Source: Burkholderiaceae bacterium
GTDB lineage: Bacteria > Pseudomonadota > Gammaproteobacteria > Burkholderiales > Burkholderiaceae
Length of the DNA stretch: 64,000 nt
Reading direction: 5' to 3'
Assembly (NCBI GenBank): GCA_021166835.1
Contig: JAJPEN010000034.1
Location: 23,985 to 87,984, forward strand
Part shown: positions 25,492 to 53,738 of the stretch, in pieces
Layout: each line of letters begins with the position of its first letter
Numbering within the stretch: position 1 is the first letter of the stretch
The notes under the pieces: model-generated
Seen by the model: only the letters and a program-made list of their open reading frames with translations
What the model was told of the DNA's origin: nothing
Databases searched by the model: none
Program-made: the position numbers and the translations under genes

Positions 25492-30638
<5,147 letters not shown>

Positions 30639-30642
<4 letters not shown>

Positions 30643-30935: not shown

Positions 30936-30962
30936 CGGCGCCCTCGTGCACGGGTCGGCGGA

Positions 30963-31241: not shown

Positions 31242-31245
31242 AGCG

Positions 31246-32201: not shown

Positions 32202-32217
32202 TTTCGGTACGGGTGCC

Positions 32218-37914: not shown

Positions 37915-38486
37915 TGGCGCTGCCCGCGCTCGATCCCGTGCTCGGCCACGCGGTCGCCGGCGCACTCGCGCTGGTGCTCGCCGTCGGCGCGTGGCCCAAG
38001 CTCGCCGACCTCGAAAGCTTCGCGTTCGCCGTCGAGCGCTACCGGCTGCTTCCGCTGCCTGCCGCGCGCGCCGTCGGCTTCGTGCTGCCCTTCGCCGAGG
38101 CCGCCGCGGCGGCGCTGCTCGTCGTGCCGGCCACTCGCCTGCCCGGCGCGCTGCTCGCCGCCGCGCTGGTCGCGCTCGTCACCGGCGCCGTCGTCGTCAA
38201 CCTGCTGCGCGGCCGCACCGACATCGACTGCGGCTGCGGCGGCCCCGGACAGCGGCAGACGCTGTCCTGGCGCCTGCCCGCGCGCAACGCCGTGCTCCTT
38301 GCCGGATGCGCGCTGGCCGCGGCGCCCGTCGCGTCACGCCCGCTCGTCTGGCTCGACGCCTTCACCGCCACCTTCGCCGCGGCAGCGTTGTGGTTCGTCT
38401 ACGCCGCCGCCGACGAGCTGCTGTCCGATCCGCATCACCTGACGCAGCAAGCCAATCGACTGCCCTCGCCGGGGACCCGCCGATGA
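37914..38486 (+). CDS. mauE: Amine dehydrogenase maturation protein MauE
   Basis: An integral membrane protein of 190 aa with four or five helices, of the MauE/DoxX-like family. The motif DCGCGG (105-110) is the recognisable cysteine pair. MauE is needed together with MauD for export or disulfide formation of the small subunit. It overlaps mauD by 4 bases. The extended hydrophilic C-terminus (about 170-190) is not conserved. Confidence 0.9.
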   Translation: MALPALDPVLGHAVAGALALVLAVGAWPKLADLESFAFAVERYRLLPLPAARAVGFVLPFAEAAAAALLVVPATRLPGALLAAALVALVTGAVVVNLLRGRTDIDCGCGGPGQRQTLSWRLPARNAVLLAGCALAAAPVASRPLVWLDAFTATFAAAALWFVYAAADELLSDPHHLTQQANRLPSPGTRR

Positions 38487-39106
38487 CCGAAGCCCTGATC
38501 GTCTCGAACCTCGTCCTGTGGGTGGCCGTGCTGGCGCTGCTCGCCACCGTGTATGCGCTGGCGCGCCAGATCGGCGTGCTCTACGAGCGCATCGCGCCGA
38601 TGGGCGCACTGATGCTCGACGCCGGTCCGAAGGTCGGCGACGCCGCGCCTGCGCTCGAGCTGCAGACCCTCGACGGGCGGGCCTTCGCCACCGGCGGCGC
38701 GCGCGAGAAGAGCCTGCTGATCTTCTTCCTGTCGCCCACCTGCCCGGTCTGCAAGAAGCTGCTGCCGATCCTGCAGCGCGTCGCCGCCGACGAGCACGGC
38801 TGGCTCGAGCTGGCCTTCGCCAGCGACGGCGAACGCGACGAGCACGAGGCGTTCCGTGCGCGCGCCGGCCTCGGCGCCTTCCCGTACGTGCTGTCCACCG
38901 AGCTGGGCATGTCCTACCGGATCGGCAAGCTGCCCTACGCGGTGCTCGTCGACGAGACCGGGCGCGTGCGCGCCAAGGGGCTGGTCAACTCGCGCGAGCA
39001 GCTCGAGAGCCTGTTCACGGCGCGCGAGCTGGGCGTCGCCTCGGTGCAGGAGTTCCTCGGCGACCGCGGCGAAACGATGCAGACGATGGAGGCGAGCAGG
39101 ACATGA
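38483..39106 (+). CDS. mauD: Amine dehydrogenase accessory thioredoxin-like protein MauD
   Basis: A protein of 207 aa with one N-terminal membrane anchor (about 7-27) and a periplasmic thioredoxin-like domain. The redox motif is CPVC at residues 87-90 within SPTCPVCKKLLP. MauD acts in forming or proofreading the six disulfides of the TTQ subunit. Overlaps at both ends (mauE and aauA, 4 bases each) indicate tight coupling. Confidence 0.93.
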   Translation: MTEALIVSNLVLWVAVLALLATVYALARQIGVLYERIAPMGALMLDAGPKVGDAAPALELQTLDGRAFATGGAREKSLLIFFLSPTCPVCKKLLPILQRVAADEHGWLELAFASDGERDEHEAFRARAGLGAFPYVLSTELGMSYRIGKLPYAVLVDETGRVRAKGLVNSREQLESLFTARELGVASVQEFLGDRGETMQTMEASRT

Positions 39107-39642
39107 ACTGGTTCGATGCGGCATTCGAGCGATCGACGCGCGCCGCCGCGCAGCGCACGTCGCGCCGCTCGGCGATCGCGCGCCTGGGGCGATTGCTGCT
39201 CGGCGCTTCGGTCGCGCTGCCCGTGCTGCCCTTCGATCGCAGCGCGCACGCGGCCAAGGGCCACGGCGGCGGCGCGAAAGGCGGCAAGGCGGTGCAGACC
39301 GACGACAAGCAGTGCGACTACTGGAAATACTGCGGCGTCGACGGCTTCCTCTGCTCGTGCTGCGGCGGCGCCGTGAACTCGTGCCCGCCCGGCACCGAGC
39401 CGTCGAAGGTGTCGTGGATCGGCACCTGCCGCAATCCGGCCGACGGCAAGGACTACCTCGTCAGCTACTTCGACTGCTGCGGCAAGAGTGCCTGCGGACG
39501 CTGCCTGTGCAACACGAACATCGGCGAGCGACCGGCGTACCGCATCACGCTGCACAACGACATCAACTGGTGCATGGGCAGCACCAGCACGATGTTCCAT
39601 TGCACCACGTCGCTGATCGTCGGCGTGGCAGAAAAATCCTGA
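39103..39642 (+). CDS. aauA: Aromatic amine dehydrogenase small (TTQ) subunit
   Basis: A protein of 179 aa. A long twin-arginine-type leader (SRRSAIARLG at 20-29, hydrophobic core, site near SAHA) is as expected for this subunit. The mature part has 14 cysteines. The two tryptophans that cross-link into tryptophan tryptophylquinone are Trp105 (VSWIGTC) and Trp156 (INWCMG), 51 residues apart, as Trp57 and Trp108 in methylamine dehydrogenase. The aspartates needed for TTQ formation and catalysis are at 80 and 124. The blocks CDYWKYCGVDGFLCSCCGG and NDINWCMG are closer to aromatic amine dehydrogenase than to the methylamine enzyme as I recall them, hence the name. Confidence 0.93.
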   Translation: MNWFDAAFERSTRAAAQRTSRRSAIARLGRLLLGASVALPVLPFDRSAHAAKGHGGGAKGGKAVQTDDKQCDYWKYCGVDGFLCSCCGGAVNSCPPGTEPSKVSWIGTCRNPADGKDYLVSYFDCCGKSACGRCLCNTNIGERPAYRITLHNDINWCMGSTSTMFHCTTSLIVGVAEKS

Positions 39643-39656: not shown

Positions 39657-41021
39657 ATGAAGGCCAGGACCAATCTTTGCGCGGCACTCGCGCTCGCGTT
39701 CGCCTGCGGGAGCGCCGCGGCGGCCGTTTCGGAGGCCGAGGCCGCTCGCCTCGGCAAGGACCTCACGCCGGTAGGCGCCGAGAAGGCCGGCAACAAGGAA
39801 GGCACCATCCCGGCCTGGGCCGGCGGCATCACGAAGGCGCCCGCCGGCTGGAAGCTGTCCGACCCGCGCCTCGATCCTTACAAGGACGAAAAGCCGCTCT
39901 TCTCGATCGACGCCTCGAACGTCGACAAGTACAAGGACAAGCTCTCCGAGGGCCAGCAGACGCTGATCCGCACGCTGCCCGGCTACCGGATGGACGTCTA
40001 CCCCACGCATCGCTCGTGCGGGTATTCCGACGAGGTCTACCAGCGCACGGCGGAGAACGCGCGCGTGGCGAAGCTCGCCGACGGCGGCTGGCAGCTCGAG
40101 AACGCCGTCGGCCGCGGCGTGCTGTTTCCGATTCCGAAGAACGGCGCCGAGGCGGTGTGGAACCACAAGCTGCGCTTCCAGGGCGAAGGCCGCATCGAGC
40201 ACTACTCGACGCTCTTCTCGAGCAAGAGCGGCGACTTCTCCCAGCTCGCGCAGAACCAGTGGGTCGTCTACCCGCTGCACGAGCAGTCGACGAAGAACTT
40301 CGACGACGTGAAGAAGTCGGAGGCGAAGATCCTCAACGAGGTGGTCAGCCCGGCGGCGCGCGCCGGCGAGATGATCCTCGTGCACTGGTTCATGGATCGC
40401 GGCTCGGATGCCTGGCTGTATTTCCCCGGCCAGCGCCGCGTGCGCCGCGCGCCGTCCTTCGCCTACGACAACCCGGTGCCCGGCTACGAGAACCTCGAGA
40501 CGGTCGACCAGTACCCGATGTACGCCGGCGCGATGGACCGCTACGACTGGAAGCTGGTCGGCAAGAAGGAGCTCTACGTCCCGTACAACAGCTGGAAGCT
40601 GATCGACAAGAGCCGCAAGTACAAGGACATCTACCTGCCCGACTACGTCAACCGCGACCTGATGCGCTACGAGCTGCATCGCGTCTGGGTGGTCGAGGCG
40701 ACGCTGAAGGAAGGCATGCGCCACATCTTCCCGCGCCGCGTAATGTTCATCGACGAGGACAGCTGGACGCTGCTGCTCACCGACCTGTACGACGCGCAGG
40801 GCAAGGTCTGGCGCGTGCAGGAAGCCAGCCTCTGGGTCGCGCCCGAGATTCCCGCCTGCGTGAGCCAGGAGTTCGTCGGCTACGACCTGAACGTCGGCCG
40901 CTACATCGCCGAGACCGCGACGCAGGAGCACCCGCCCACCGACTGGCTCGCCGGTCGCGAAGGCCGCATCAACCCGAACATGTTCAGTCCGGACGAACTG
41001 CGCCGCCGCGGCGAGCGTTGA
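39657..41021 (+). CDS. DUF1329-family periplasmic/outer membrane-associated protein
   Basis: A protein of 454 aa with a signal peptide (site near GSAAAA). The family has a LolA/LolB-like fold and is named for outer-membrane lipoprotein-sorting similarity; function is not settled. Conserved stretches include DLTPVGAEKAGN, LPGYRMDVYPTHRSC and FPRRVMFIDEDSW. It regularly travels with DUF1302 and an RND protein, as here. A strong ribosome-binding site (GGGAGGAGAG) precedes the ATG. It starts 14 bases after aauA, so it is probably in the same operon. Confidence 0.9.
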   Translation: MKARTNLCAALALAFACGSAAAAVSEAEAARLGKDLTPVGAEKAGNKEGTIPAWAGGITKAPAGWKLSDPRLDPYKDEKPLFSIDASNVDKYKDKLSEGQQTLIRTLPGYRMDVYPTHRSCGYSDEVYQRTAENARVAKLADGGWQLENAVGRGVLFPIPKNGAEAVWNHKLRFQGEGRIEHYSTLFSSKSGDFSQLAQNQWVVYPLHEQSTKNFDDVKKSEAKILNEVVSPAARAGEMILVHWFMDRGSDAWLYFPGQRRVRRAPSFAYDNPVPGYENLETVDQYPMYAGAMDRYDWKLVGKKELYVPYNSWKLIDKSRKYKDIYLPDYVNRDLMRYELHRVWVVEATLKEGMRHIFPRRVMFIDEDSWTLLLTDLYDAQGKVWRVQEASLWVAPEIPACVSQEFVGYDLNVGRYIAETATQEHPPTDWLAGREGRINPNMFSPDELRRRGER

Positions 41022-41108: not shown

Positions 41109-43004
41109 ATGACGAAGAAGAACGCAGGAGCCGCGACGAAGCGGCCCGCAATGGCGAAGCGCGCCGCGCTCCGGCCGACGGCCGCCGCGCATGCAGTGAC
41201 GTTCGCGCTGGCGGCGCTGGCGGCCGGACTGGCCGGAGCGCCGGCACACGCCTTCAAGTTCGAGAACGAGTGGGTGAAGGGAAGCCTGGACTCGACCGTC
41301 TCGCTCGGCTTCATCAGGCGGATGCAGAAGACCGACCGAAGCATCATCGGCAACGACAACGGAGGAGACACGCCGGTAACGAGCGAGCTGGGACGACGGG
41401 GCGATGCGTTCTACGGACTCGCTCCGGGCAGCACGGTCGCGGTTCCGGACTTCAACTACCTGCAGGCCGACGATGGCGACCTGAACTACAAGAAGGGCGA
41501 CATCGTCTCGGCGGCGTTGAAGGGTACGCACGAACTCGTGCTGCACTTCCCGAACCAGTGGAGCGGCATGCTGCGCGCCACCTGGTTCAAGGACTGGAGG
41601 ACCGACGAAACCCGGCGCATGCCGCTCGACCCCGATGCGCGCTCCGCCGCGGTCGACCAGATCACCCTGCTCGACGCGTGGGTCGCCAAGGAGTTCGAGA
41701 TCGCCGGCAGGCCTGCGAAGATCAAGGTCGGCAACCAGGTGATCAGCTGGGGCGAGGACATCTTCATCTACGGCGGGGTGAACGTCACCAACGCGATCAA
41801 CCTGCAAAGCGCGCATGCCCCCGGCATGCAGCTGAAGGAGATCTTCCGGCCCGCGCCGATGGTCTCGATCAACGCGAACGTCGCCGAGGGATTGAGCGTC
41901 GAGGGCTACTACCAGTTCCGCTGGAACGCATTCAAGTTCGACCCGGTCGGCACCTTCTTCTCGGTGACCGACGTCATCGGAAAAGGCGGACACAACGCGT
42001 TCATGAGCTCGTCGCTGCTCGGCCTGCCGCCGGGCACGGTAGGCGACCTCGGCACGATCAATCCGACCACGGGCCAGCGTTTCACGCGTGCCGAGCTGGC
42101 CGCGGGCACCGCGACGATTCCGCTCGCCGGCGTCCCGCTGCCGACGCTGGTGGAGCAGATGCCGACCAACGAGCCGAGGGACTCCGGACAGTTCGGTCTG
42201 GCGACGCGCTGGCTGCCCGAGGGCTCCGAGACCGAGTACGGGCTGTACTGGATCCGCTATCACGACAAGCTGCCCACCGTCGGGTTCCAGTTCGACCCCG
42301 CCCTCTACACGACGAACGTCGCGGCGCTGGGCTACTTCGTCGACTACGGCGAGAGCCGCAACGTATTCGGCATCTCGGCGAACACGCGGCTCGGAGACTG
42401 GGCGGTCGGCATGGAACTGTCGTACCGGCCGAAGGACTCCGTAGGCATCGATGCCACCGTCCTGCCTCCGCAGGCCGGCAAGTACTCGGTCTTCGAATTC
42501 CCGGGCAAGAAGATGCGCGGATTCGTCGACGAGAAGAAGTGGCAGGCCCACCTCACCGGCTTCAAGCTGCTGGCGCCCGCCGACATGGGCGGCGCGATCG
42601 GCGCAGTGGGCGCCGAGGAAGGCTACTTCCTCGGCGAAGTCGCGGTCGCGCACTACCCGGGCCTCGATCGTTCCGGGCGCATTCCCTACCTGCTCACCGA
42701 CTACACGCTGCCCGACAAGACCTCCGCCGGCATGGTCTTCTCCACCGGCCTCACCTACGCCAATGTCGGCAACAGCGGCTGGAACGTGCTGCCGCAGCTC
42801 GACGTCGCCTGGGACTTCCACGGCACCTCGCCGAACGCCGCTCCCTTCATCGAAGGCCGCAAGGCGACGACGATCTCGCTGAACTTCAACCGCTCCGACA
42901 AATGGAAGGCCGGCATCGGCTACACGCGGTTCTGGGGCGGCGGCGGCAACAACCTGATGAAGGACCGCGACTTCCTGTCGCTGGTCACCTCGGTGTCGTT
43001 CTGA
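41109..43004 (+). CDS. DUF1302-family outer membrane protein
   Basis: A protein of 631 aa with a signal peptide after a long charged N-terminus (hydrophobic core about 35-50, site near APAHAF). The repeated alternation of aromatic and polar residues and the C-terminal VTSVSF (terminal Phe) indicate an outer-membrane beta-barrel. DUF1302 proteins are paired with DUF1329 in operons for hydrophobic substrates such as steroids and aromatic compounds. The next gene is an RND transporter. Function as a substrate or ligand channel is an inference. Confidence 0.9.
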   Translation: MTKKNAGAATKRPAMAKRAALRPTAAAHAVTFALAALAAGLAGAPAHAFKFENEWVKGSLDSTVSLGFIRRMQKTDRSIIGNDNGGDTPVTSELGRRGDAFYGLAPGSTVAVPDFNYLQADDGDLNYKKGDIVSAALKGTHELVLHFPNQWSGMLRATWFKDWRTDETRRMPLDPDARSAAVDQITLLDAWVAKEFEIAGRPAKIKVGNQVISWGEDIFIYGGVNVTNAINLQSAHAPGMQLKEIFRPAPMVSINANVAEGLSVEGYYQFRWNAFKFDPVGTFFSVTDVIGKGGHNAFMSSSLLGLPPGTVGDLGTINPTTGQRFTRAELAAGTATIPLAGVPLPTLVEQMPTNEPRDSGQFGLATRWLPEGSETEYGLYWIRYHDKLPTVGFQFDPALYTTNVAALGYFVDYGESRNVFGISANTRLGDWAVGMELSYRPKDSVGIDATVLPPQAGKYSVFEFPGKKMRGFVDEKKWQAHLTGFKLLAPADMGGAIGAVGAEEGYFLGEVAVAHYPGLDRSGRIPYLLTDYTLPDKTSAGMVFSTGLTYANVGNSGWNVLPQLDVAWDFHGTSPNAAPFIEGRKATTISLNFNRSDKWKAGIGYTRFWGGGGNNLMKDRDFLSLVTSVSF

Positions 43005-43047: not shown

Positions 43048-45408
43048 ATGATCGCCCGCAGCGTAGAACGTCTCCAGCGCCTGCTGTTCGGTCATCGGGC
43101 GCTGGTGCTCGCGCTGCTGGCGGTCTTCACCGCGGTGATGGGCGTGTTCGCGAGCCGGCTGCACATGGACGCCGGCTTCGACAAGCAGCTGCCGCAGCAC
43201 CACGAGTACATCCGCACCTTCTTCGAGTTCCGTGACGAGGTCTTCGGCGCGAACCGGATCATCGTCGTCGTACGCGCGCGCGACGGCGAGATCTGGACGG
43301 CGCCCGGCCTGCGCAAGCTCTACGACGTCACGCAGTCGGTGATGTTCCTGCCGGGCATCGACCGGCGCACCGTCACCTCGCTGTGGACGCCGAACACGCG
43401 CGTGCTCGGCGTCACCGAGGAAGGCTTCAAGGCCGAGGACGTCATCGGCGGCGACATCACGCCCGACCGGCTCGACGACGGCCGCATCGAGCGCATCCGG
43501 CACAACGCCCTGGTCGGCGGCTACATCGGCACGCTGGTGTCCACCGACAACGCCGGCGCGATGGTCGTCGCCGACCTGCTCGAGACCGACCGCGCCACCG
43601 GGAAGAAGCTCGACTACCTCGACTTCGCCTCGCGCATCGAGCAGGAAGTGCGCGGCCGGCACGAGGACGCCGGCTACGAGATCCAGATCATCGGCTTCGC
43701 CAAGCAGGTGGGCGACATCGCCGACGGCGCGACCAGCGTCGTGCACTTCTTCGCGCTCGCCTTCGTGCTCACGGCGCTCTCGGTATGGCTGTACTGCCGC
43801 TCGTGGCGCCTCACGCTGCTCACGCTCGGCTGCTCGCTCGTCTCGGTCGTCTGGCAGTTCGGCTCACTGCGCCTGCTCGGCTACGGGCTGGACCCGCTCG
43901 CCGTGCTCGTGCCTTTCCTCGTCTTCGCGATCGGCGTCTCGCACGGCGTGCAGCAGATCAACTACATCGTCAAGGAAACCTGCGCCGGCGCCGACAGCGG
44001 CACCGCGGCGCGGCGCGCCTTCACCGGGCTGCTGATTCCCGGGTCGATGGCGCTCGTTACCGCCTTCGTCGGCTTCGCCACGCTCACGCTGATCCCGATC
44101 CCGATGATCCGCGAGCTGGGCATCACGGCATCGATCGGCGTGGCCTACAAGATCGTCACCAACCTCGTGATGCTGCCGGTCTCCGCTTCGTACCTGGGCT
44201 TCGACGATGCGTACGTGGCGCGGATGAAGCGGCTGCGCGCGCGCCGCGAACAGGTCATGGCCTGGCTCGGCGGAATCGCGAGCACGCGCAACGCCATCAT
44301 CGGCACGCTGGCCGGCGCGCTGCTGTTCGCCGTCGCCTTCCAGCAGAGCCAGCACCGGCACGTCGGCCACCTCGCTTCGGGCGCGCCCGAACTGCGCGCC
44401 GATTCGCGCTTCAACCGCGACGCGGCGTCGATCGTCGCCAGCTTCGACCTCGGCCTGGACGTGCTCACGGTGGTCTTCGAGGCGCCCAAGGACGGCTGCT
44501 ACCAGCAGCCGGTGATGGCCTACATCGACCAGTTCGCCTGGCAGATGCAGAACACGCCGGGCGTCATCTCGGTGGCTTCGGTCGCGCAGCTCGCCAAGCA
44601 GGCGTATGCCGGCACGAACGAAGGCCACCCGAAGTGGACCGCGCTCGCCGCCGACGAACGCTCGCTCGCCAACTCGGTGGGCCTCATCCCCGAAGGCACC
44701 GGGCTCTTCAATCCGGGCTGCACCGTGCTGCCGGTGAACGTCTTCCTCACCGACCACAAGGCCACCACCGTCAAGGACGTGATCGCCGCCGTGCGCGCGT
44801 TTCGCGACGCCGAGCACATGAGCGGGGTGAAGCTGCGGCTGGCCAGCGGCAACGTCGGCGTGCAGGCGGCGACCAACGAAGTGCTCGAGACCACCGAATT
44901 GCCGATGATGCTGTACGTCTACCTGACGATCGTCGCGCTCGTGTTCTTCACCTACCGCGACTGGCGCGCGATGCTCGCCTGCTGCATGCCGCTCACGCTC
45001 GCCACCTTCCTCGGCTACTGGTTCATGAAGGAACTCGACATCGGACTCACCGTGGCCACGCTGCCGGTGATGGTGCTGGCGGTGGGCATCGGCGTCGACT
45101 ACGCGTTCTACATCTACAACCGCCTGCAGCTGTACCTGGCGCAGGGCGCGAACATCGCGGTGGCGTTCCGCCAGGCGCTGATGGAAACCGGCAACGCCAC
45201 GGTGTTCACCGCGATCACGCTGTCGGTGGGCGTTGCCACCTGGTCGTTCTCGGAGCTGAAGTTCCAGGCCGACATGGGCATGCTGCTCACGTTCATGTTC
45301 ATGGTGAACATGCTGATGGCGATCACGCTGCTGCCGGCGATCGCCGTCACGCTCGACGTGCTGATTCCGCGCCGCCGGCCGGTGCGCGCGCCCTTCCTCG
45401 TCCACTGA
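43048..45408 (+). CDS. RND/MMPL-family transporter
   Basis: A protein of 786 aa with the MMPL/SSD layout: helix 1 (about 15-35), a periplasmic loop, five helices (about 230-390), helix 7 (about 415-430), a second loop, and five more helices (about 610-775). Motifs include FVLTALSVWLYCRSWRL and LAVGIGVDYAFYIYNRL (core GIGVDYAFYIYNR). The conserved aspartate and tyrosine of the proton relay are in the latter. It lacks the usual adaptor protein of tripartite pumps; the DUF1329/DUF1302 pair may replace it. It might move lipids or hydrophobic compounds between membranes. Confidence 0.9.
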   Translation: MIARSVERLQRLLFGHRALVLALLAVFTAVMGVFASRLHMDAGFDKQLPQHHEYIRTFFEFRDEVFGANRIIVVVRARDGEIWTAPGLRKLYDVTQSVMFLPGIDRRTVTSLWTPNTRVLGVTEEGFKAEDVIGGDITPDRLDDGRIERIRHNALVGGYIGTLVSTDNAGAMVVADLLETDRATGKKLDYLDFASRIEQEVRGRHEDAGYEIQIIGFAKQVGDIADGATSVVHFFALAFVLTALSVWLYCRSWRLTLLTLGCSLVSVVWQFGSLRLLGYGLDPLAVLVPFLVFAIGVSHGVQQINYIVKETCAGADSGTAARRAFTGLLIPGSMALVTAFVGFATLTLIPIPMIRELGITASIGVAYKIVTNLVMLPVSASYLGFDDAYVARMKRLRARREQVMAWLGGIASTRNAIIGTLAGALLFAVAFQQSQHRHVGHLASGAPELRADSRFNRDAASIVASFDLGLDVLTVVFEAPKDGCYQQPVMAYIDQFAWQMQNTPGVISVASVAQLAKQAYAGTNEGHPKWTALAADERSLANSVGLIPEGTGLFNPGCTVLPVNVFLTDHKATTVKDVIAAVRAFRDAEHMSGVKLRLASGNVGVQAATNEVLETTELPMMLYVYLTIVALVFFTYRDWRAMLACCMPLTLATFLGYWFMKELDIGLTVATLPVMVLAVGIGVDYAFYIYNRLQLYLAQGANIAVAFRQALMETGNATVFTAITLSVGVATWSFSELKFQADMGMLLTFMFMVNMLMAITLLPAIAVTLDVLIPRRRPVRAPFLVH

Positions 45409-45421: not shown

Positions 45422-45907
45422 GTGTTCGATAGCCTGATCCGCCGACTGTCGCTCGAGCCCAGCGCACCGCCCATTGCGCAGGCGGCGTTCGAGCGCCGCC
45501 AGCTCGCCGTCGCGGCGCTCCTCGTCGAGGCCGCGCACATCGACCGCCACGCCGGGCCCGACGAGCGCGGCGCGGTCGCTCGACTGCTGCGCGGGCACTT
45601 CGGCCTTTCCGAACGCGACGCGCAAAGGCTGGTCGAAGAGGCCGAAAAGCGCTACGCGACCAGCCTCGACGACTGGATCTTCGCCCGCGCCGTGCGCGAC
45701 GGCTTCGATCCCGCCGAGCGCGTCGAGGTGCTGCGCATGCTGTGGGAGGTCGTCTACAGCGACGGCCGGCTCGCCGCCTTCGAGCTGGATCTGCTGCAGC
45801 GTATGTGCGCCGCGCTGGGCATCGACGACGAAGCCGCCGAGGGCGCCCGCGTCCTCGCCTTCGCCAGCGCGAACCCGCACGATCCCGAGCAGGCGGGCGA
45901 GACATGA
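45422..45907 (+). CDS. TerB-family protein
   Basis: A protein of 161 aa, all-helical, of the TerB/tellurite-resistance family (COG4103-like). The blocks LLVEAAHIDRHAGPDERGAV and YSDGRLAAFELDLL carry the paired metal-binding Asp/Glu residues expected for the fold (shown by IDRHAGPDE and DGRLAAFE). No signal peptide. The GTG start overlaps no gene but lies 13 bases after the RND stop, and its end overlaps the YCF48 gene by 4 bases. Its role in this operon is unknown. Confidence 0.8.
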   Translation: MFDSLIRRLSLEPSAPPIAQAAFERRQLAVAALLVEAAHIDRHAGPDERGAVARLLRGHFGLSERDAQRLVEEAEKRYATSLDDWIFARAVRDGFDPAERVEVLRMLWEVVYSDGRLAAFELDLLQRMCAALGIDDEAAEGARVLAFASANPHDPEQAGET

Positions 45908-46935
45908 AGCGACCCCTCCTTCGGCTCGCCGCGGCGCTGTGCGCGGCGCAGCTTCTCGCCGCCTCGGGTATCGCCGGCGACGATCCTGCCGACGGCGCGG
46001 CCCGGGCGGCGACCGCCGCGGACGCGGCCGCAGGTACGGCCGCGAAAGCCGGACCGGCGGGCGCGGGCAAGCCCGCCGCCGTGCAGGCGCAGAAAGTGCA
46101 GCATCCCGAACATGCGCCGCTGCTCGCCGCGGCGCGCGCCGGCGCGCGACTCGTCGTCGTCGGCGACTACGGAACGATCCTGCTGTCCGACGACGACGGG
46201 AAAGGCTGGCGCCAGGCGCAATCGGTGCCCACGCGGGTGACGCTCACCGCGCTCGAGTTCGTCGACGACCGGCACGGCTGGGCCGTCGGCCACGGAGGCG
46301 TCATCCTCTCCACCGACGACGCCGGCGAGCACTGGAGTCTGCGCCACGAGGCCGGAAGCGACGTCGCGCTGTTCTCGGTGCACTTCGACGACCTGCGCCG
46401 CGGGCTGGTCGTCGGCTCCTTCGGCTTCGCCTCGCGCACCGACGACGGTGGCGCCACCTGGCGTCGTGTGCAGCTCGGCGACCAGGACGTGCACCTGTAC
46501 CAGATCTTCCCCGATTCGCGCGGCGCCACCTGGATCGCCGCCGAGATGGGCACCGTGTACCGCTCGCACGACGGCGAACGCTTCGAGCGCGTCGAGGTGC
46601 CATACAGCGGCTCGCTGTGGGGCGGCATGGCCACGCCGGACGGATCGATCCTGCTGTGGGGCATGGGCGGCACGCTGCTGCGCAGCGTCGACGACGGACA
46701 CTCGTGGCACCAGACGTCCACCGACACGCAGAACCCGATCACCGCCGCCTGCCGCCTGCCCGACGGCCGGCTCGTCTTCGTCGGGCTCGGCGGCACCGTG
46801 CTGGCGAGCAGCGACGGCGGCGCCACCGTCAGCACCGAAATCCGTCCTGCCCGGCATGCCTACACCGCGGCGATCCTCGCGCATGGCAAGCCGCTGCTGT
46901 TCAGCCTGGCCGGCGTCGAACCACCGCAACCTTGA
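45904..46935 (+). CDS. YCF48/BNR-repeat periplasmic protein
   Basis: A protein of 343 aa with a signal peptide (about 1-26) and a low-complexity Ala/Gly linker (27-62), followed by a beta-propeller of BNR/YCF48 repeats (repeating W-aromatic blocks such as HGWAVGHGGVILSTDDAGEHW, given here as GWAVGHGG and STDDAGEHW). Related proteins sit in DUF1329/DUF1302/RND operons and in photosystem II assembly. It probably scaffolds the outer-membrane or RND complex. The gene continues directly toward the aldehyde dehydrogenase. Confidence 0.85.
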   Translation: MKRPLLRLAAALCAAQLLAASGIAGDDPADGAARAATAADAAAGTAAKAGPAGAGKPAAVQAQKVQHPEHAPLLAAARAGARLVVVGDYGTILLSDDDGKGWRQAQSVPTRVTLTALEFVDDRHGWAVGHGGVILSTDDAGEHWSLRHEAGSDVALFSVHFDDLRRGLVVGSFGFASRTDDGGATWRRVQLGDQDVHLYQIFPDSRGATWIAAEMGTVYRSHDGERFERVEVPYSGSLWGGMATPDGSILLWGMGGTLLRSVDDGHSWHQTSTDTQNPITAACRLPDGRLVFVGLGGTVLASSDGGATVSTEIRPARHAYTAAILAHGKPLLFSLAGVEPPQP

Positions 46936-46989
46936 GTGGCACGCGCCCTTTCCCTTCCCTTCGCACCGAACGCACAACCGGAGACAAGC

Positions 46990-48477
46990 ATGAACACCGA
47001 CACCGCCCGCCCCGAGCTCGCCGCGATCCGCCGCAAGATGTTCGTCGGCGGTCAATGGGTGGAAGCCCGCTCGGGCAAGACGCTGCCCGTCTATGACCCG
47101 GCCACCGGCCAGGAGATCGCCCGCGTGCCCGATGCGCAGGCCGAGGACGTCGACGCCGCCGTGCGCTCGGCGCGCGCGACCTTCGAGTCTTCCGCCTGGC
47201 AGGACATGCTGCCGGCGCAGCGCGAGCTGCTGATGCTGCGGCTGGCCGACCTCGTCGAGAAGAACGGCGAGGAGCTGGCGCGCCTGGAGACGCTGAACAA
47301 CGGCAAGCTGCTGATGTTCTCGCGCATGCTCGAGGTCGGCGCGAACGCGCAGTGGATCCGCTACATGGCCGGCTGGGCCACGAAGATCGAAGGCTCGACG
47401 CTCGACGTCTCGATTCCGTTCCCGCCCGGGGTCAAGTACACGGCGATGACGCGCCGCGAGGCGGTCGGCGTGGTCGGCGCGATCGTGCCGTGGAACTTCC
47501 CGCTGCTGATGGCGATGTGGAAGATCGCGCCGGCGCTCGCCTGCGGCTGCACGGTGGTGCTCAAGCCGGCGGAGGAGACGCCGCTCACCGCGCTGCGGCT
47601 GGCCGAACTCGTGATGGAAGCGGGCTTCCCCGCCGGCACGGTGAACGTCGTCACCGGCTACGGCGAAAGCGCGGGCGCCGCGCTGGTCAGGCATCCCGGC
47701 ATCGACAAGATCACGTTCACCGGGTCCACCGAAGTCGGCAAGACGATCGGCCGCAGCTGCATGGACGAGATGAAGCGCGTCACGCTCGAACTGGGCGGCA
47801 AGAGCCCGGTGATCGTGCTCGAAGACTGCGATCCGAACACCGCGATCGCCGGCGCGGCCGGCGCGATCTTCTTCAACCACGGGCAGGTGTGCACGGCCGG
47901 CTCGCGGCTCTTCGTGCACAAGAGCCGCTACGACGAAGTGGTCGCCGGCCTCGCCGCGGCGGCGAACGCGACGAAGCTCGGCGGCGGCTTCGACGAAACG
48001 GCGCAGATGGGGCCGATGGTCTCGGCGCATCACCGCGACCGCGTGGTCCGCTACATCGACAGCGGCAAGAGCGAGGGAGCCGAGTGCCTGGCCGGCGGTG
48101 GAGCGGCGGCGGGCGCGGGCTACTTCGTCAAGCCGACGGTTTTCTCGAATCCCACCGGCAAGGAGCTGACGATCTCGCGCGAGGAGATCTTCGGGCCGGT
48201 CGTGGTGGCGTCGCCCTACGACGATCTCGAAGAGGTCGCGCGGCGCGCCAACGACTCGCGCTACGGCCTGGGCGCGAGCATCTGGACGAACGACCTCACG
48301 AAGGCATACCGGCTGATCCCGAAGATCAAGGCGGGCACCGTCTGGCTCAATTGCCACAACATGGTCGACCCGAACCTGCCCTTCGGCGGCTACAAGGAAT
48401 CGGGCACCGGACGCGAGCACGGCCGCGCGATGATCGACGCCTATACCGAGACGAAATCGGTGTGCGTGGCGTACTGA
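46990..48477 (+). CDS. Aldehyde dehydrogenase (phenylacetaldehyde dehydrogenase-like)
   Basis: A protein of 495 aa of the NAD-dependent aldehyde dehydrogenase superfamily, with no signal peptide. The catalytic cysteine is in GQVCTAGSR and the glutamate in LELGGKSP. The NAD site has FTGSTEVGK, and PWNFPLLMAMWK is typical. It most resembles phenylacetaldehyde dehydrogenases (FeaB/PadA type), which would oxidise the aldehyde made by aromatic amine dehydrogenase. The ATG at 46990 gives the normal start. Confidence 0.92.
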   Translation: MNTDTARPELAAIRRKMFVGGQWVEARSGKTLPVYDPATGQEIARVPDAQAEDVDAAVRSARATFESSAWQDMLPAQRELLMLRLADLVEKNGEELARLETLNNGKLLMFSRMLEVGANAQWIRYMAGWATKIEGSTLDVSIPFPPGVKYTAMTRREAVGVVGAIVPWNFPLLMAMWKIAPALACGCTVVLKPAEETPLTALRLAELVMEAGFPAGTVNVVTGYGESAGAALVRHPGIDKITFTGSTEVGKTIGRSCMDEMKRVTLELGGKSPVIVLEDCDPNTAIAGAAGAIFFNHGQVCTAGSRLFVHKSRYDEVVAGLAAAANATKLGGGFDETAQMGPMVSAHHRDRVVRYIDSGKSEGAECLAGGGAAAGAGYFVKPTVFSNPTGKELTISREEIFGPVVVASPYDDLEEVARRANDSRYGLGASIWTNDLTKAYRLIPKIKAGTVWLNCHNMVDPNLPFGGYKESGTGREHGRAMIDAYTETKSVCVAY

Positions 48478-48540
48478 GTGCTCGAACCGAATGCTTCGAA
48501 CCGAGGCTTCGACCCGCCGGGGGCTCCCGAGCCTCTCGAT

Positions 48541-48918
48541 GTGCGTGACTTGCTGAGCGCGATCGGGGCGGCTGCCGTCACGGCGGCCGCTCTCGCCTGC
48601 TTCGCCGGCGCGGGCCCGTCCTTCGCGCAGTCGCGCGACGTGGCGTCGTCGGCGGCGACGCTGTACGCGCTGAACTGCATGGGGTGCCATCCGGCGCCGA
48701 AGACGCGCGAGCACGACGCGGGTCCGCTGCGCGGCGAGTTCTTCCACACCGACAAGGGACGCAGTTTCTTCATCCGGATGCCGGTCGACGGCCGCCGCCT
48801 GACGGCGGCCGAGGAAGCCCGCCTGCTCGACGAAGTGTTCACGTGGAAACGCGCCTGCGCGGCGATCCGGCAGGACGCGCCGATGGTCGACTACCGCGGC
48901 GAACACTTCGTTCGCTGA
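48541..48918 (+). CDS. Small mono-haem c-type cytochrome
   Basis: The frame is open from a GTG at 48478, but the signal peptide starts near a GTG at 48541 (125 aa), so the shorter form is preferred. One haem site is CMGCH. The short mature protein contains RGEFFHTDKGRSFFIRMPVDG and a C-terminal WKRAC. An unassigned small cytochrome follows the structural genes in known aau clusters, so this is a plausible electron carrier for the dehydrogenase or for the peroxidase-like proteins downstream. It is not an amicyanin or azurin. Confidence 0.75.
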   Translation: MRDLLSAIGAAAVTAAALACFAGAGPSFAQSRDVASSAATLYALNCMGCHPAPKTREHDAGPLRGEFFHTDKGRSFFIRMPVDGRRLTAAEEARLLDEVFTWKRACAAIRQDAPMVDYRGEHFVR

Positions 48919-48922
48919 AGCC

Positions 48923-50077
48923 GTGCCGGAACCGAAGCCCCGTCGCGCGCAGGGGCCGCGGGTGAAGCTGCCCGCAGGCCTTCCGGCGGCGCTGTTCGCG
49001 GCGCTGTTCGCCGTACTGTGTACGGCCGGCGCCGCGACGTCGGCGCCCTCGCACGCGCCCTCGCACGCACCTTCGCCGACGGCTTCCCCCGCCGCGCGGA
49101 TCGCGGAACGCATCGCGCTCGGTCGCGAGCTGTTCTTCGAATCGCGCCTGTCGGGCGACGGCAGCCGCAGCTGCGCGAGCTGCCATGCGCCGGACAAGGG
49201 CTACGCCGACGGCGAGGCGCTCTCGCGCGGCTACAACCACGCCGGGCACTTCCGCAACACGCCTTCGCTGATCGCGCTCGCCTCGAAGCCGCGCCTGATG
49301 TGGGACGGCCGCTACCCGGCGGAACGGCTGGCCGACGTCGTCGTCGACATGATCCGATCGCCGGTGACGATGAACGGCGACCTGCAGATCGTCGTCGAGC
49401 GCGTGCGGCAGCTCCCGACGCTGCTGCAGGCGTGGCAGCGCGCGTACGGCGCGCGCGAAGCGCCGACCGCCGAAGGGCTGGTGGACGCGATCGCCGCGTA
49501 CGCCAGCTCGCGCGGCAACGCCGAGACGGCGGTCGATCGGGCGTTGCGCGGCGACGAACCGGCGCTGTCGGCAGCGGCGCTCGAAGGCATGCGCCTGTTC
49601 CAGGGCAAGGCGGGCTGCGCACGCTGCCATTCGGGCGCCGCATTCACCGACGGCGGCCTGCATCGCCTGGGCGTGCCCGAGAACCCCGAGATCCTGCGCG
49701 ACCCGGAGCGAACGATCAGCCTGCTGCGCCATTACGCGGTGCACGGCGCGCGCGACCCGATGTCCGAACGCAGCGACACGGGTGCTGCGGCGTGGACGCA
49801 GCGCGCAGCGGACCGCGGCCGCTTCGCCACGCCTTCGCTGCGCGGCGTGGCGCTCACCGCCCCCTACATGCACAACGGCGTCTTCGCGACGCTCGCGCAG
49901 GTCGTCGAGTTCTACGACCGCGGCGGCGGGCGCGCGAGCGAGCTGCAGCCGCTCGGGCTGAACGCGCGCGAGCGCGCGGCGCTCGTCGCCTTCCTCGAGG
50001 CGCTGTCGCCGCCGCTGGCGCCGGAGAGCGCACCGCCGGCGGACAACTACGCGACCACCGCCGGAGCGGGCCGATGA
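48923..50077 (+). CDS. Di-haem cytochrome c peroxidase / MauG-like protein 1
   Basis: A protein of 384 aa from a GTG start, with a signal peptide (hydrophobic core about 18-35). The haem sites are CASCH (84-88) and CARCH (232-236). The C-terminal haem region FATPSLRGVALTAPYMHNGVFATL (core TAPYMHNGVFATL) resembles bacterial di-haem peroxidases. MauG, required to form TTQ, belongs to this family, so this gene or the next could supply TTQ maturation. Which one cannot be decided by eye. An in-frame APSH APSH repeat lies in the mature N-terminus (49043-49066). It overlaps the next gene by 4 bases. Confidence 0.88.
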   Translation: MPEPKPRRAQGPRVKLPAGLPAALFAALFAVLCTAGAATSAPSHAPSHAPSPTASPAARIAERIALGRELFFESRLSGDGSRSCASCHAPDKGYADGEALSRGYNHAGHFRNTPSLIALASKPRLMWDGRYPAERLADVVVDMIRSPVTMNGDLQIVVERVRQLPTLLQAWQRAYGAREAPTAEGLVDAIAAYASSRGNAETAVDRALRGDEPALSAAALEGMRLFQGKAGCARCHSGAAFTDGGLHRLGVPENPEILRDPERTISLLRHYAVHGARDPMSERSDTGAAAWTQRAADRGRFATPSLRGVALTAPYMHNGVFATLAQVVEFYDRGGGRASELQPLGLNARERAALVAFLEALSPPLAPESAPPADNYATTAGAGR

Positions 50078-51399
50078 ATCGTCGCCGCTTCGCCGCGGGC
50101 GGCGCCGCACTCGTCGTCGGCACCGCGTCCGCGATCATCGGCGCGCTGGCCGTCTCGGCCGTACTCGCGTCCGCATTCCCCGACGCAGCGGGTACCGATC
50201 CAGCCTCGCCCAGCCAAGGTCTTTCCCCTTCTCCCTTCTCCCTTCTCCCTTCTCTTTCCGCAACCCCGCCCCCCCTCGCCCCGCTCCCCCCGGTGCCGAT
50301 CCCCGCCGACAACCCGATGTCGGCGCAGAAGATCGAACTGGGCAAGCTGCTGTTCTTCGATGCGCGGCTGTCGGGCGATGCGTCGACCTCGTGCGCCTCC
50401 TGTCACGTCGCGCAGCACGGCTGGGCGCACCACGAGCCGCTCGCGCCCGGCTATCCGGGCCACCGGCTGTGGCGCAACAACCCGACCGTGCTCAATGCCG
50501 CGCACTTCCGGCGGCTGATGTGGGACGGCACGATCGACCGCCTCGAAGTGCAGGCTCGCTCGGCGATGCAGGCGCCGGTCGAAGGCAACGGAAAAGCCGA
50601 ACTCGTCGAGATGCGGCTGCGGCTCGTGCCCGAATACGTCGATCGCTTCCGCGAGGTCTTCGGCACCGACTGGCCGCAGCTCGAAGACGCCTGGCGCGCG
50701 ATCGCCGCCTTCGAGCGCACGATCGTCTCCGACCCGCGGCGCGTGCCCTTCGATCGCTTCGCCGCAGGCGACGCGCGCGCGATGACGCCGGCCGCGCAGC
50801 GCGGCTATGCGCTCTTCACCGGCAAGGCGCGCTGCATCGCCTGTCACAACGGGCCGCTGGCGAGCGACCAGCAATACCACGCGCTCGGCGTTCCGCGCCA
50901 GACGCTGTTCGACTCGAGCCCGCTCGTGCAGATCGCCGTGCGTTGGCAGAACGCGCAGCGCGACGCGCCGCGCGCGCTATACCGGGATGCCGAAGAAGAC
51001 CTCGGCCGCTGGTACCGCACGCGCGACCCTGCCGATATCGGGCGCTTTCGCACGCCGTCGCTGCGCGAACTGCGCTACACGGCGCCCTACATGCACAACG
51101 GCGTCTTCGCGACGCTCGCCGAGGTGGTCGACTTCTTCGATCGCGGCGGCGGCGACGCGCCGAACAGGTCGCCGCTGCTGCAGCCGCTGGGCCTGAGCGC
51201 CGCGGAGAAGAGCGATCTCGTCGCCTTCCTCGAGGCGCTGAGCATGGACGAGCCGCTCGTCGTCGCGACGCCGGCGTTGCCGCCGATGATGCCGCTGGTC
51301 GACACGGCGCAGGCGGCCTGCACGATCGACGCGAGCCTGGCGAGTGAAGCGGGCGCGGCGAACGGAACGGGCGCGACAGGCGCAACGCGCGGGAGATGA
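50074..51399 (+). CDS. Di-haem cytochrome c peroxidase / MauG-like protein 2
   Basis: A protein of 441 aa with a twin-arginine-like start (MNRRRFAAGG) and a hydrophobic segment (about 10-35). A Pro/Ser-rich linker (about 40-80) is encoded in part by four copies of a 7-bp repeat. The haem sites are CASCH (107-111) and CIACH (254-258). The C-terminal haem region RYTAPYMHNGVFATL matches its neighbour. A role as MauG for TTQ biogenesis, or in peroxide removal next to the NO-reductase-like protein, is possible. The stop overlaps the start of that gene by 4 bases (ATGA). Confidence 0.88.
   Translation: MNRRRFAAGGAALVVGTASAIIGALAVSAVLASAFPDAAGTDPASPSQGLSPSPFSLLPSLSATPPPLAPLPPVPIPADNPMSAQKIELGKLLFFDARLSGDASTSCASCHVAQHGWAHHEPLAPGYPGHRLWRNNPTVLNAAHFRRLMWDGTIDRLEVQARSAMQAPVEGNGKAELVEMRLRLVPEYVDRFREVFGTDWPQLEDAWRAIAAFERTIVSDPRRVPFDRFAAGDARAMTPAAQRGYALFTGKARCIACHNGPLASDQQYHALGVPRQTLFDSSPLVQIAVRWQNAQRDAPRALYRDAEEDLGRWYRTRDPADIGRFRTPSLRELRYTAPYMHNGVFATLAEVVDFFDRGGGDAPNRSPLLQPLGLSAAEKSDLVAFLEALSMDEPLVVATPALPPMMPLVDTAQAACTIDASLASEAGAANGTGATGATRGR
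50226..50253. repeat. Heptanucleotide simple-sequence repeat, four copies of CCCTTCT, inside a CDS
   Basis: Four perfect tandem copies of the 7-mer CCCTTCT run from 50226 to 50253, encoding about residues 51-60 of the second di-haem peroxidase. Loss or gain of one copy shifts the reading frame. The flanking sequence is also a pyrimidine-rich run (to about 50280), unlike the rest of the window. Confidence 0.85.
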
Positions 51400-53738
51400 G
51401 GAGCATGGGTCGCCTGTGGAACCGTTACGTGATGCACCGGCGACGCTGGTGGATCCCGCTCACCGCGGTGCTCGCGATCGGCGTGCTGAGCATGCTGTAC
51501 ATGGGCGCGCGCACCTACGCCGATGCGCCGCCCGTGCCCGACTTCGTCGACGAGCGGGGAACCACGCAGGTGGCCGCCGACGCGATCCGGCGCGGACAGG
51601 CCGTGTTCCTGAAATACGGGCTGATGAACTACGGCAGCTTCTTCGGCGACGGCGCCGGCCGCGGCCCCGATTTCACGGCCGACGCGCTGCATCGCGTGGC
51701 GCTCGCGATGCGCGACTGGCATGCATCGCGCGAGGGCGTCGACGACGATTCGGCGCTCGCCGCCGCGCAGCGGGCGATCCGCCGCAACCGCTACGACGAA
51801 GCGACGAATATCGTGCGCATCGGCGAAGCGCAGGCCTACGCCGCGCGCGACCTCGAGCGGCAGGTTGCCGCGCGCTTTCGCGGCGAAGGCAACGAGCCCT
51901 TCCATCCGGCCGGCTGGATTTCCGACGAGGCGGAGTTGCGCGACCTCGCCGCGTTCTTCTTCTGGGGCGCGTGGGTGTGCGGCGCCGAGCGTCCGGGCGA
52001 GAGCTATTCGTACACGCACAACTGGCCCTACGACGAGCTGGCGGGCAACCGTCCGAGTGCGCAGGTCGTGCTGTGGAGCGCCGTTGCCGTGCTCGCGCTC
52101 GTCGCCGCGCTGGGCGTGGTCCTGTTCGCCTACGGGCGCTATTCGAGGATCGCCGGCTGGCGCTCGTCGGAGCGGCAAGCGCGGCCGGCGCAGGCGCAGG
52201 CGCAACGACGACGACGCATCGAATTCCCCGGCGAAGCGAGCGTGCACTCGCCGCTCGAAGCCGCGCCGTCGGCGCTGCAGCGCGCGACCTGGAAGTTCTT
52301 CGTCGTCGCCGCGCTGCTCTTCGTGCTGCAGATCGTCGCCGGCATCCTCACCGTGCACGACTTCCTCGGCGTCACGCGCGTGTTCGGCATCGACCTTGCC
52401 GAGACGCTGCCGATCCCGATCGTGCGCGGCTGGCACCTGCAACTCGCGCTGCTGTGGATCACCGCGTGCTGGATCGGCTCGTCGATCTTCGTGATCTCCA
52501 CCGCCAGCCCGCACGCGATCGCCGGCCAGCGCCGTCTCGTCGACGCGATGTTCGTGCTGCTCGTCGTCACCGCGGCCGGCGGCCTGGCCGGCGTGGCCCT
52601 CGGCCCGCACGGCGTCCTCGGCGAGCACTGGCATTGGCTGGGCAGCCAGGGCTGGGAGTTCGTCGAACAGGGGCGCCTGTGGCAGGCGATGCTCTTCGTC
52701 GTGATCGCGCTGTGGGCAATCGTGCTCGCGCGCGCCGTCGTCCCGACCTGGCGCACGGGCGATGCGTGGACGCTGCCCAAATGGCTCGTCTGGTGCGTCG
52801 CGTGCGTGCTGCTGCTGTTCCTTTCGGGCTTCGTCTCCGGTCCCGAGACGAACTTCGTCGTCGCCGACTTCTGGCGCTGGGCAGTGATCCACATGTGGGT
52901 CGAAGCCTTCTTCGAGGTGTTCGCCACCGCGCTGCTGGCCTACTGCATGGTGCTGATGCGGCTCGTGAGCCACCCGGCGGCCTCGCGCATCGTCTATCTG
53001 GCAACGCTGCTCTTCCTCGGCTCGGGGCTGCTCGGCATCTCGCACAACTTCTACTGGAACGCCAAGCCGGTGGTCACGCTGGCGATCGGCAGCGTGTTCT
53101 CGACGCTGCAGGTGGTGCCGCTGATCCTGCTCACGCTCGAGGCCTGGCAGTTCCGCAACGCGCCGCAGCGCGCAGGCAACTCGTTCGCGCACGGCGAGGC
53201 CTTCATCTTCCTGCTCGGCGTGAATTTCTGGAACTTCCTCGGCGCCGGAATGTTCGGCTTTCTCGTCAACCTGCCGATCGTCAACTACTACGAGCACGGC
53301 ACCTATCTCACCGTGAACCACGGCCACGCCGCGCTGATGGGCGTCTACGGCAACCTCGCGATCGCGATGATCGTGTTCTGCGCGCGCAGCCTGGTCGAGC
53401 CGGCGCGCTGGAACGCGCGGCTGTTGCGCTGCGTGTTCTGGTCGATCAACGTCGGGCTGATGGGGATGGTCGTGCTCGACCTCTTCCCGGTGGGCGTCGC
53501 GCAACTGATGGACGTGCTCGAGAACGGCCTGTGGCACGCACGCTCGCAGGTCTTCGTGCAGGGAGCGCTCTTCCAGGCGCTCACCTGGGCGCGCATCGTC
53601 GGCGGCGCGATCTTCGTGCTCGGCGGCGTGCTGCCGCTCGCCTGGTTCGTGCTGACGCGCTCGGCGTCGCTGAAGGCCGCGCAGCCGGAGCCGTCGTTGC
53701 CGCCGGCTACGCGATCAGTGCCCGAAGCTTCGCTTTGA
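51396..53738 (+). CDS. nod: Putative nitric oxide dismutase (qNOR-family haem-copper oxidase with altered FeB site)
   Basis: A protein of 780 aa with the quinol-type NO reductase layout: an N-terminal helix, a periplasmic domain related to cytochrome c but lacking haem (GRGPDFTADALH), then about 13 helices. FeB-site residues are His499 and Glu503 (HMWVE) and His550, but the second histidine of the usual HH pair is Asn551 (SHNFYW). The conserved Glu of SALEVVPL is Gln572 (STLQVVPL). With a constant offset of 9, these correspond to His508, Glu512, His559, His560 and Glu581 of Geobacillus qNOR. H560N and E581Q are the substitutions I recall for putative NO dismutases. The haem ligands His642/His644 are present (NHGHAALMGVYG). 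It is the last gene of the amine dehydrogenase cluster, overlapping the peroxidase 2 stop. An ordinary qNOR is the alternative. Confidence 0.8.
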   Translation: MRSMGRLWNRYVMHRRRWWIPLTAVLAIGVLSMLYMGARTYADAPPVPDFVDERGTTQVAADAIRRGQAVFLKYGLMNYGSFFGDGAGRGPDFTADALHRVALAMRDWHASREGVDDDSALAAAQRAIRRNRYDEATNIVRIGEAQAYAARDLERQVAARFRGEGNEPFHPAGWISDEAELRDLAAFFFWGAWVCGAERPGESYSYTHNWPYDELAGNRPSAQVVLWSAVAVLALVAALGVVLFAYGRYSRIAGWRSSERQARPAQAQAQRRRRIEFPGEASVHSPLEAAPSALQRATWKFFVVAALLFVLQIVAGILTVHDFLGVTRVFGIDLAETLPIPIVRGWHLQLALLWITACWIGSSIFVISTASPHAIAGQRRLVDAMFVLLVVTAAGGLAGVALGPHGVLGEHWHWLGSQGWEFVEQGRLWQAMLFVVIALWAIVLARAVVPTWRTGDAWTLPKWLVWCVACVLLLFLSGFVSGPETNFVVADFWRWAVIHMWVEAFFEVFATALLAYCMVLMRLVSHPAASRIVYLATLLFLGSGLLGISHNFYWNAKPVVTLAIGSVFSTLQVVPLILLTLEAWQFRNAPQRAGNSFAHGEAFIFLLGVNFWNFLGAGMFGFLVNLPIVNYYEHGTYLTVNHGHAALMGVYGNLAIAMIVFCARSLVEPARWNARLLRCVFWSINVGLMGMVVLDLFPVGVAQLMDVLENGLWHARSQVFVQGALFQALTWARIVGGAIFVLGGVLPLAWFVLTRSASLKAAQPEPSLPPATRSVPEASL

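Follow-up and report, generated by a model that had tools for sequence, protein, structure and literature searches.

A putative nitric oxide dismutase gene in an aromatic amine dehydrogenase operon of a Burkholderiaceae bacterium: a possible oxygen source for cofactor maturation

Described systems and the locus

Putative nitric oxide (NO) dismutases (NODs) are described, in the passages of PMC3413370 cited here, as having an asparagine for one coordinating histidine, a glutamine for the catalytic-site glutamate and a spoiled quinol site, and as forming a separate cluster. They are known in several phyla, and membership of the family is not new in itself. In Methylomirabilis the gene stands in the context of methane monooxygenase (PMC13386854, cited passages). 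Here we describe a gene of this kind, nod, at positions 51396 to 53738 of a 64,000-nucleotide stretch (hereafter the window) of contig JAJPEN010000034.1 from a Burkholderiaceae bacterium, where the context consists of amine dehydrogenase and MauG-like genes instead.

Two described clusters resemble the dehydrogenase genes. The mau cluster of Paracoccus denitrificans (mauF-B-E-D-A-amicyanin-J-G) has the same B-E-D-A order, the residues of the tryptophan tryptophylquinone (TTQ) cofactor and a downstream MauG gene, but it is of the methylamine type, with amicyanin, one true MauG and no NOD. The aromatic amine dehydrogenase (AADH) cluster on plasmid p1 of Cupriavidus pinatubonensis shares aauBEDA, cytochromes c, an aldehyde dehydrogenase and the DUF1302-MMPL-YCF48 genes, but neither a MauG-like pair nor a NOD is annotated in it within 24.5 kb. 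Among nod genes, those of Burkholderiales were reported to have "two cytochrome C-peroxidases" and "mauABED" as neighbours, with no clear oxygen-consuming system (PMC13386854, mSystems, June 2026, cited passages), and these neighbourhoods most probably belong to one locus type with ours. The locus type is already in print, and what is added here is its reading as a TTQ system: the cited passages name no O2-consuming partner, whereas we resolve the dehydrogenase as aromatic amine type and propose TTQ maturation as the sink. The terms "maug", "tryptophylquinone" and "aromatic amine" have 0 occurrences in the main text of that paper, and among the papers listed by a literature search that covered journals other than subscription ones, none was found to interpret the locus as a TTQ system in need of oxygen. 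Two joint mentions of NOD and an amine dehydrogenase or MauG term were discarded on the passages concerned, one being a chance match to a surname (PMC8115048) and the other coming from unrelated sections (PMC8489226).

Assignment of the protein to the putative NOD family

The open reading frame (ORF) has an ATG start and runs uninterrupted for 780 residues. COX1 and NorB cytochrome c-like domains were found by Pfam (NorB_cytochrome_c-like, 140 bits), and no NCBIfam model matched the ORF. No CxxCH motif is seen by eye in the translation, which leaves the cytochrome c-like N-terminal domain without heme c. The best solved relative is the quinol-dependent NO reductase (qNOR) of Geobacillus stearothermophilus, 3ayf (E 7e-148), with homology along 720 residues (33-752). 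A preliminary description of the window had proposed this homology and had set H499, E503, H550, N551 and Q572 opposite H508, E512, H559, H560 and E581 of qNOR, always 9 positions apart; the 3ayf alignment bears out the residues and this spacing, and the coordinates given there are correct as well. It had also pointed to HN for HH at FeB and to a change of Glu to Gln. Both are confirmed by alignment and codons, as the FeB ligand His560 is replaced by N551 and the catalytic-site Glu581 by Q572, so that the three FeB histidines and the catalytic glutamate that define qNOR read HN and Q in this protein. The remaining heme and FeB histidines are retained (GWHLQ, H499, H550, NHGHAA). At the quinol site E332, F336 and D746 are replaced by G325, V329 and G737; the histidine of H328 persists as H321, and likewise in 73 of 89 NOD-type loci, so that the site is altered only in part. 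The rule of two substitutions for putative NODs, given in the preliminary description, is found in print, both changes being stated in the cited passages of PMC3413370.

The same residues were read in related loci. All 89 NOD-type loci, eight of which are second copies of genomes sampled twice, carried HN, and Q was present in 87 of the 87 reaching that position, the other two ending before it. The 32 qNOR/cNOR loci all read HHE, and HN was found in none of them. A set of 80 NOD loci, kept out of 255 relatives, was retrieved partly by a pattern holding HNFYWNAK, so the HN count among these 80 is biased. A less biased sample was taken from the class, where 120 of 369 genomes matched; the best 30 loci comprised five with HN and Q (L081, L168-L171) and 25 with HH and E, and since in many genomes only two candidates each were scored, a NOD could be missed. 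In three of the class genomes (L169, L170 and L171) the HN/Q protein shows FYWIA, the motif that marks the sub-clade of Methylomirabilis. The 240 best protein-search matches (120 of 2072 and 120 of 1778) gave 239 HNQ and one HNH.

In the main tree, built from 84 chosen sequences without partial and duplicate loci (LG+F+G4, 1000 ultrafast bootstraps), the 52 HN/Q proteins formed a single clade with a bootstrap of 90 and no intruder among the 32 HH/E proteins, adjoining 23 qNORs with a support of 83. The clade includes the Methylomirabilis NOD, P0250, titled "nitric oxide-like (norZ) [Candidatus Methylo...". This protein shares with ours the H-to-N and E-to-Q changes, the SHNFYW and FST(L/M)Q motifs and a Gly at the place of D746; it is only 40% identical, lies in another sub-clade and reads FYWIAKP where the window protein reads FYWNAKP. 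A FastTree run without Methylomirabilis, from which the partial or duplicate loci L028, L047, L076, L081, L100 and L118 were left out, grouped 85 of 85 NOD-type sequences with a support of 0.88. An ordinary qNOR with two chance changes was rejected on the basis of both trees. The tree check that the preliminary description had called for was thus run, with the HN/Q clade standing apart from the HH/E proteins and no placement inside ordinary qNOR, and its candidate NO dismutase is upheld at the level of family membership. The assignment of the gene to the putative NOD family is well supported on sequence grounds.

In the nearest genome, G001, this NOD has 98% identity; among named records a metagenome-assembled genome (MAG) titled "Burkholderiales bacterium isolate PRO4" comes first (97%), with further MAGs under the titles Burkholderiaceae and Lautropia sp. 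SCN 69-89 after it; several genomes were entered under two handles, e.g. G001 and G075. NOD as a plasmid gene was considered and rejected on the 11 records inspected, all of them HH/E, out of 319 with a tblastn match among 72,556 plasmid records, every match being below 60% identity.

The operon and its occurrence across genomes

The operon context of nod, absent from the preliminary description, is supplied by the present analysis (Table 1). The gene is the 14th and last of a same-strand run with intergenic gaps of -4 to 87 bases, and each junction in mauG1-mauG2-nod is a 4-base overlap. We infer that the 14 genes form one transcript.

Table 1. Features of the amine dehydrogenase and nod locus, in window positions.
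Feature	Position	Strand	Evidence and remarks
AraC-family regulator	35482..36459	-	Divergent to operon; Pfam HTH_18 81.6 bits; start not fixed
aauB, AADH heavy chain	36766..37914	+	PDB 2h3x, E 2e-94, 320 bits (comparison made on longer ORF 36262-37911); Pfam Me-amine-dh_H
mauE-type membrane protein	37914..38486	+	Pfam MauE 103 bits
mauD, disulfide accessory protein	38483..39106	+	NCBIfam TIGR02661 MauD 196.7 bits, cut-off 188.6 (ORF 37991-39103)
aauA, TTQ light chain	39103..39642	+	PDB 2i0r 188 bits; Pfam Me-amine-dh_L 176 bits
DUF1329 protein	39657..41021	+	Pfam 457 bits
DUF1302 protein	41109..43004	+	Pfam 475.6 bits
MMPL/RND-type transporter	43048..45408	+	Pfam MMPL 72.4 bits
TerB-family protein	45422..45907	+	Pfam 104.5 bits
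YCF48/BNR protein	45904..46935	+	Pfam PSII_BNR 65.4 bits (ORF 45742-46932)
Aldehyde dehydrogenase, phenylacetaldehyde dehydrogenase (StyD) type	46990..48477	+	NCBIfam NF045735, 882.9 bits, cut-off 850 (ORF 46936-48474); Pfam Aldedh
Small c-type protein, one CxxCH	48478..48918	+	Motif count; no Pfam match
mauG1, di-heme MauG-like	48923..50077	+	Pfam CCP_MauG; two CxxCH
mauG2, di-heme MauG-like	50074..51399	+	Pfam CCP_MauG; two CxxCH
nod, putative NO dismutase	51396..53738	+	Overlaps mauG2 by 4 bases
nod684Fv2 general nod primer site	52010..52027	+	One mismatch; YTHNWP motif; primer sequence from PMC10286720 (cited passage)

By comparison with PDB entries, the heavy chain scored 320 bits against AADH and at most 110.5 bits against methylamine dehydrogenase, and the light chain 188 bits and at most 168.6 bits, respectively. 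The predicted dehydrogenase (aauB-mauE-mauD-aauA) is accordingly of the aromatic amine type. TTQ is formed from two light-chain tryptophans by addition of oxygen and cross-linking. In aauA, W105 and W156 (codons at 39415 and 39568) align with the TTQ tryptophans, and the active-site aspartates correspond to D80 and D124; these residues stand opposite W114, W165, D89 and D133 of the Paracoccus MauA precursor. We take the offset of this precursor to be 57, which gives tryptophans 57 and 108 and, presumably, aspartates 32 and 76. The second TTQ tryptophan is numbered 107 in the cited text of PMC6405878.

In the 74 genomes of the family of G001, NOD was found in nine, all belonging to one genus (g1), with 77-98% identity and in one case in two fragments. 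All nine loci read HN, and the next matches were qNORs at 34-37%. The light-chain gene aauA was present in 16 of the 74 genomes (one merely a 47-residue match), including all nine with NOD. Within g1 it occurred in 9/9 genomes with NOD and in 0/9 without (Fisher 4e-5, ignoring kinship), the latter being 65 to 99% complete, with weak absences in G060 (68%) and G074 (65%). In eight of the nine NOD genomes nod and aauA are found on a single contig with about 10-14 kb between them; in the ninth, G062, the dehydrogenase and the MauG-like pair share a contig and NOD is on another. The 14-gene block was also found in a Burkholderiaceae MAG (L167) and, outside this family, in a Rhodocyclaceae MAG (L165), whose aldehyde dehydrogenase is only 37% identical. 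In two Sulfuritalea loci (L009, L011) the order is aldehyde dehydrogenase-cytochrome c-mauG1-mauG2-nod with aauBEDA divergent, and the same arrangement is followed in L016 until the contig ends within mauE. In a gammaproteobacterial locus (L020/L215) nod and aauB are arranged in another way: they diverge, their matches are separated by about 0.2 kb, and MauG genes are lacking.

In a wider set, the TTQ light chain was found in 17 of 50 NOD genomes, comprising 17/23 proteobacterial and 0/27 others; these were 50 of the 80 NOD genomes, the 30 left out being mostly Bacteroidota, and the groups follow record titles. In the class sample it was found in 11/369, and the two proportions, 17/23 and 11/369, compare genomes chosen for likeness to this NOD with a sample of the class. 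Within that sample it occurred in two of the five genomes with an HN/Q NOD (Fisher 0.008, ignoring kinship). NOD and TTQ are thus closely tied in a single branch, and over the greater part of the NOD family tree there is no such tie.

The genomes of g1 with NOD appear to be denitrifiers. NirS was found in 7/9 of them and in 6/9 g1 genomes without NOD, and NosZ in 9/9 and 5/9, respectively. NirK was rejected as an NO source, with 0/26 genomes over the cut-off and two at about 193 bits. Full-length PaaA/PaaC, the O2-dependent phenylacetyl-CoA epoxidase, was found in 0/9 g1 genomes with NOD and 6/9 without; G062 has one match, at 28.9 bits barely over the cut-off of 28.5. A homologue resembling benzoyl-CoA reductase subunit B (86% or more) occurred in 7/9 g1 genomes with NOD, 2/9 without, and 0/6 of those genomes in the family that have AADH but no NOD. 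As proof of anaerobic use of aromatics it was set aside and taken only as a hint, since 2/9 genomes without NOD share it and the query itself, at 228 bits, is under the model cut-off of 486.6. We infer that the g1 genomes with NOD belong to denitrifiers perhaps handling aromatics without oxygenases, in which O2 for TTQ would be scarce.

Several further observations were made around the locus and in other NOD genomes. Immediately upstream of the regulator of the amine operon, at 30249-35449, an ATPase_gene1 protein is encoded together with ATP synthase genes, in a set resembling the N-type ATPase. An SAH riboswitch at 5671-5742 (Rfam RF01057, 63.3 bits) precedes an ORF at 5839-7266. The NOD gammaproteobacterium G088 has three TTQ light chains, on contigs C76, C92 and C112 (L161-L163), and its NOD stretch, L209, shows none. 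DUF1800 and DUF1501 genes lie near nod in nine loci (L017, L018, L019, L021, L025, L027, L045, L047 and L069) titled Planctomycetota (8) and Acidobacteria (1), in L018 just before nod.

Proposed oxygen supply for TTQ maturation and other explanations

MauG carries out the final six-electron oxidation of TTQ maturation with H2O2, O2 plus electrons being an alternative oxidant. Its substrate already bears the first hydroxyl, and the second is added along with the cross-link (PMC7876137, cited passages), so that TTQ biogenesis takes an oxidant at the level of oxygen. Because maturation by MauG-type enzymes needs such an oxidant, NOD becomes a candidate supplier, and we propose, with a probability of roughly 40%, that it provides O2 for TTQ maturation by the MauG-like pair in denitrifying cells. 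What is directly observed is that the protein falls in the NOD family, that the genes stand in this order, that the TTQ residues are retained and that the genes co-occur in one genus. In the proposed course of events, NO made by NirS would enter NOD in the membrane and, as is predicted for this protein, be converted by 2 NO -> N2 + O2; the O2 would reach the periplasmic MauG-like pair, and TTQ of the light chain would be finished without outside oxygen. The mature dehydrogenase would then oxidise aromatic amines to aldehydes, from which the aldehyde dehydrogenase would make the acid, and the electrons would leave the dehydrogenase via cytochrome c to denitrification. It may be speculated that the two MauG-like genes serve two oxidation stages. 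The broader notion of a dedicated O2 supply for a protein cofactor, in which denitrifiers would carry an NO-dismutating enzyme as part of their amine dehydrogenase operon, is offered still a little more tentatively.

A number of points weigh against O2 supply for TTQ. Both di-heme proteins score below the cut-off of the TTQ_mauG model (mauG1 186.7 and mauG2 210.9 bits, cut-off 443.85) and are thus MauG-like, not MauG, by that test. The best PDB matches of mauG2 are other di-heme enzymes, with MauG itself at only 75 bits. Tyr331 of mauG1 aligns with the distal heme tyrosine of Paracoccus MauG, while mauG2 has Phe355 at this place. The number of that tyrosine is presumably 294. An offset of 20 fits Asn66, Thr275 and Pro277 of PMC6405878, where, in the cited passages, the six-coordinate heme of MauG is described with Tyr-His ligation. 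Since the cited passages give H2O2 as the oxidant of MauG, the scheme would further need a reaction that brings O2 to the level of peroxide. No close MauG pair was found in the genomes of L020, L013 and L014 despite NOD and TTQ; at 1e-30 two of them had no MauG-like match and that of L014 had one distant homologue. Likewise, no MauG-like gene was found in the 20-kb stretch around the TTQ gene of the L043 genome (L160). The TTQ light chain was not found in 6/23 proteobacterial and 27/27 other NOD genomes, and of the five HN/Q NOD genomes in the class sample just two had it; with TTQ genes lacking in so many NOD genomes, TTQ maturation cannot be the general purpose of NOD. AADH clusters without NOD exist, and common ancestry alone may account for the linkage of the genes. 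Finally, no NOD has been isolated so far, and there are results that speak against NO dismutation (PMC13386854, cited passages).

The idea that AADH clusters generally include the MauG-like pair was considered and rejected, a homologue being found in 0/13 AADH regions without NOD (12 genomes), although these are short windows of about 10 kb or less on either side of aauA, and in the window mauG1 starts 9.3 kb beyond the end of aauA. In these 12 genomes a distant MauG-like homologue lies on another contig in eight, with none in four. The pair itself varies in form. In G062 it is one ORF of 802 residues with two CCP_MauG stretches (L213, 9018-11426), an apparent fusion. In G086 NOD and two tandem MauG-like genes (46 and 58%; L212, 12712-14960) occur without a TTQ light chain; an ORF of 258 residues stands before the pair and a large ORF, by eye molybdopterin oxidoreductase-like, after it. 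Could the pair in G086 have another target?

Among the other explanations, the protein could be an NO scavenger of the NOD family that removes toxic NO from denitrification, its link to the amine operon coming from shared control or a hitch-hiking cassette. Control by NO stress would fit the recurrence near NOD of an Rrf2 regulator cluster (30/80 loci) and a ScdA/hemerythrin repair protein (14/80), mostly in Bacteroidota, and NsrR and OxyR beside other nod genes have led to the suggestion of NO detoxification (PMC13386854, cited passages). In the window, however, no Rrf2-type gene was found among the genes scanned by Pfam (30.2-56.7 kb), the regulators near the operon being the divergent AraC type and a downstream MarR type. 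FNR/DNR-type control was rejected also, as none of the FNR/DNR-like boxes (10 in the window with 2 mismatches, 4.1 expected) lies in the gap of 36.46-36.77 kb before aauB. NosZ in all nine g1 NOD genomes and distant 29% homologues, perhaps cNOR, in three of them suggest ordinary NO handling, and the gene tie with TTQ is complete within g1. We consider the scavenger unlikely.

Equally improbable in our view is that NOD makes O2 for respiration or another oxygenase, the MauG-like pair being ordinary peroxidases protecting the periplasm. The NOD of Methylomirabilis has been proposed to feed methane monooxygenase (PMC3413370 and PMC13386854, cited passages), and outside g1 full-length PaaA/PaaC is kept in 4/8 genomes with NOD and AADH (G084, G085, G087 and G088). 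The aerobic phenylacetate pathway was nevertheless rejected as the O2 sink in g1, where no NOD genome has the full-length enzyme, and no oxygenase was found in the 14-gene block by Pfam. Least probable of all is a reductase fed by the dehydrogenase, with TTQ electrons passing via c-type proteins to FeB and NO reduced to N2O or N2 without quinol: three c-type proteins, one of them mono-heme and two di-heme, have their genes next to nod, and Gly, Val and Gly replace E332, F336 and D746 as if another donor took over, but c-type proteins follow aauA in the Cupriavidus cluster without NOD too and are thus not NOD partners in particular, the di-heme pair is peroxidase/MauG-like, and proteins of this kind are apparently unable to accept external electrons (PMC3413370, cited passages).

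The use of NOD-made O2 outside methanotrophs has been called an open question (PMC13386854, June 2026, cited passages), and NOD activity is still without biochemical proof; for both, the locus offers a testable candidate O2 sink. TTQ has a signature in mass and colour, so a TTQ enzyme matured anoxically with NO would be both sink and reporter of NOD activity. If O2 supply for TTQ maturation is true, O2 from NOD would go to biosynthesis and not to hydrocarbon attack, 18O from NO would end in TTQ, and the use by denitrifiers of a cofactor needing oxidation at the level of O2 would be explained.

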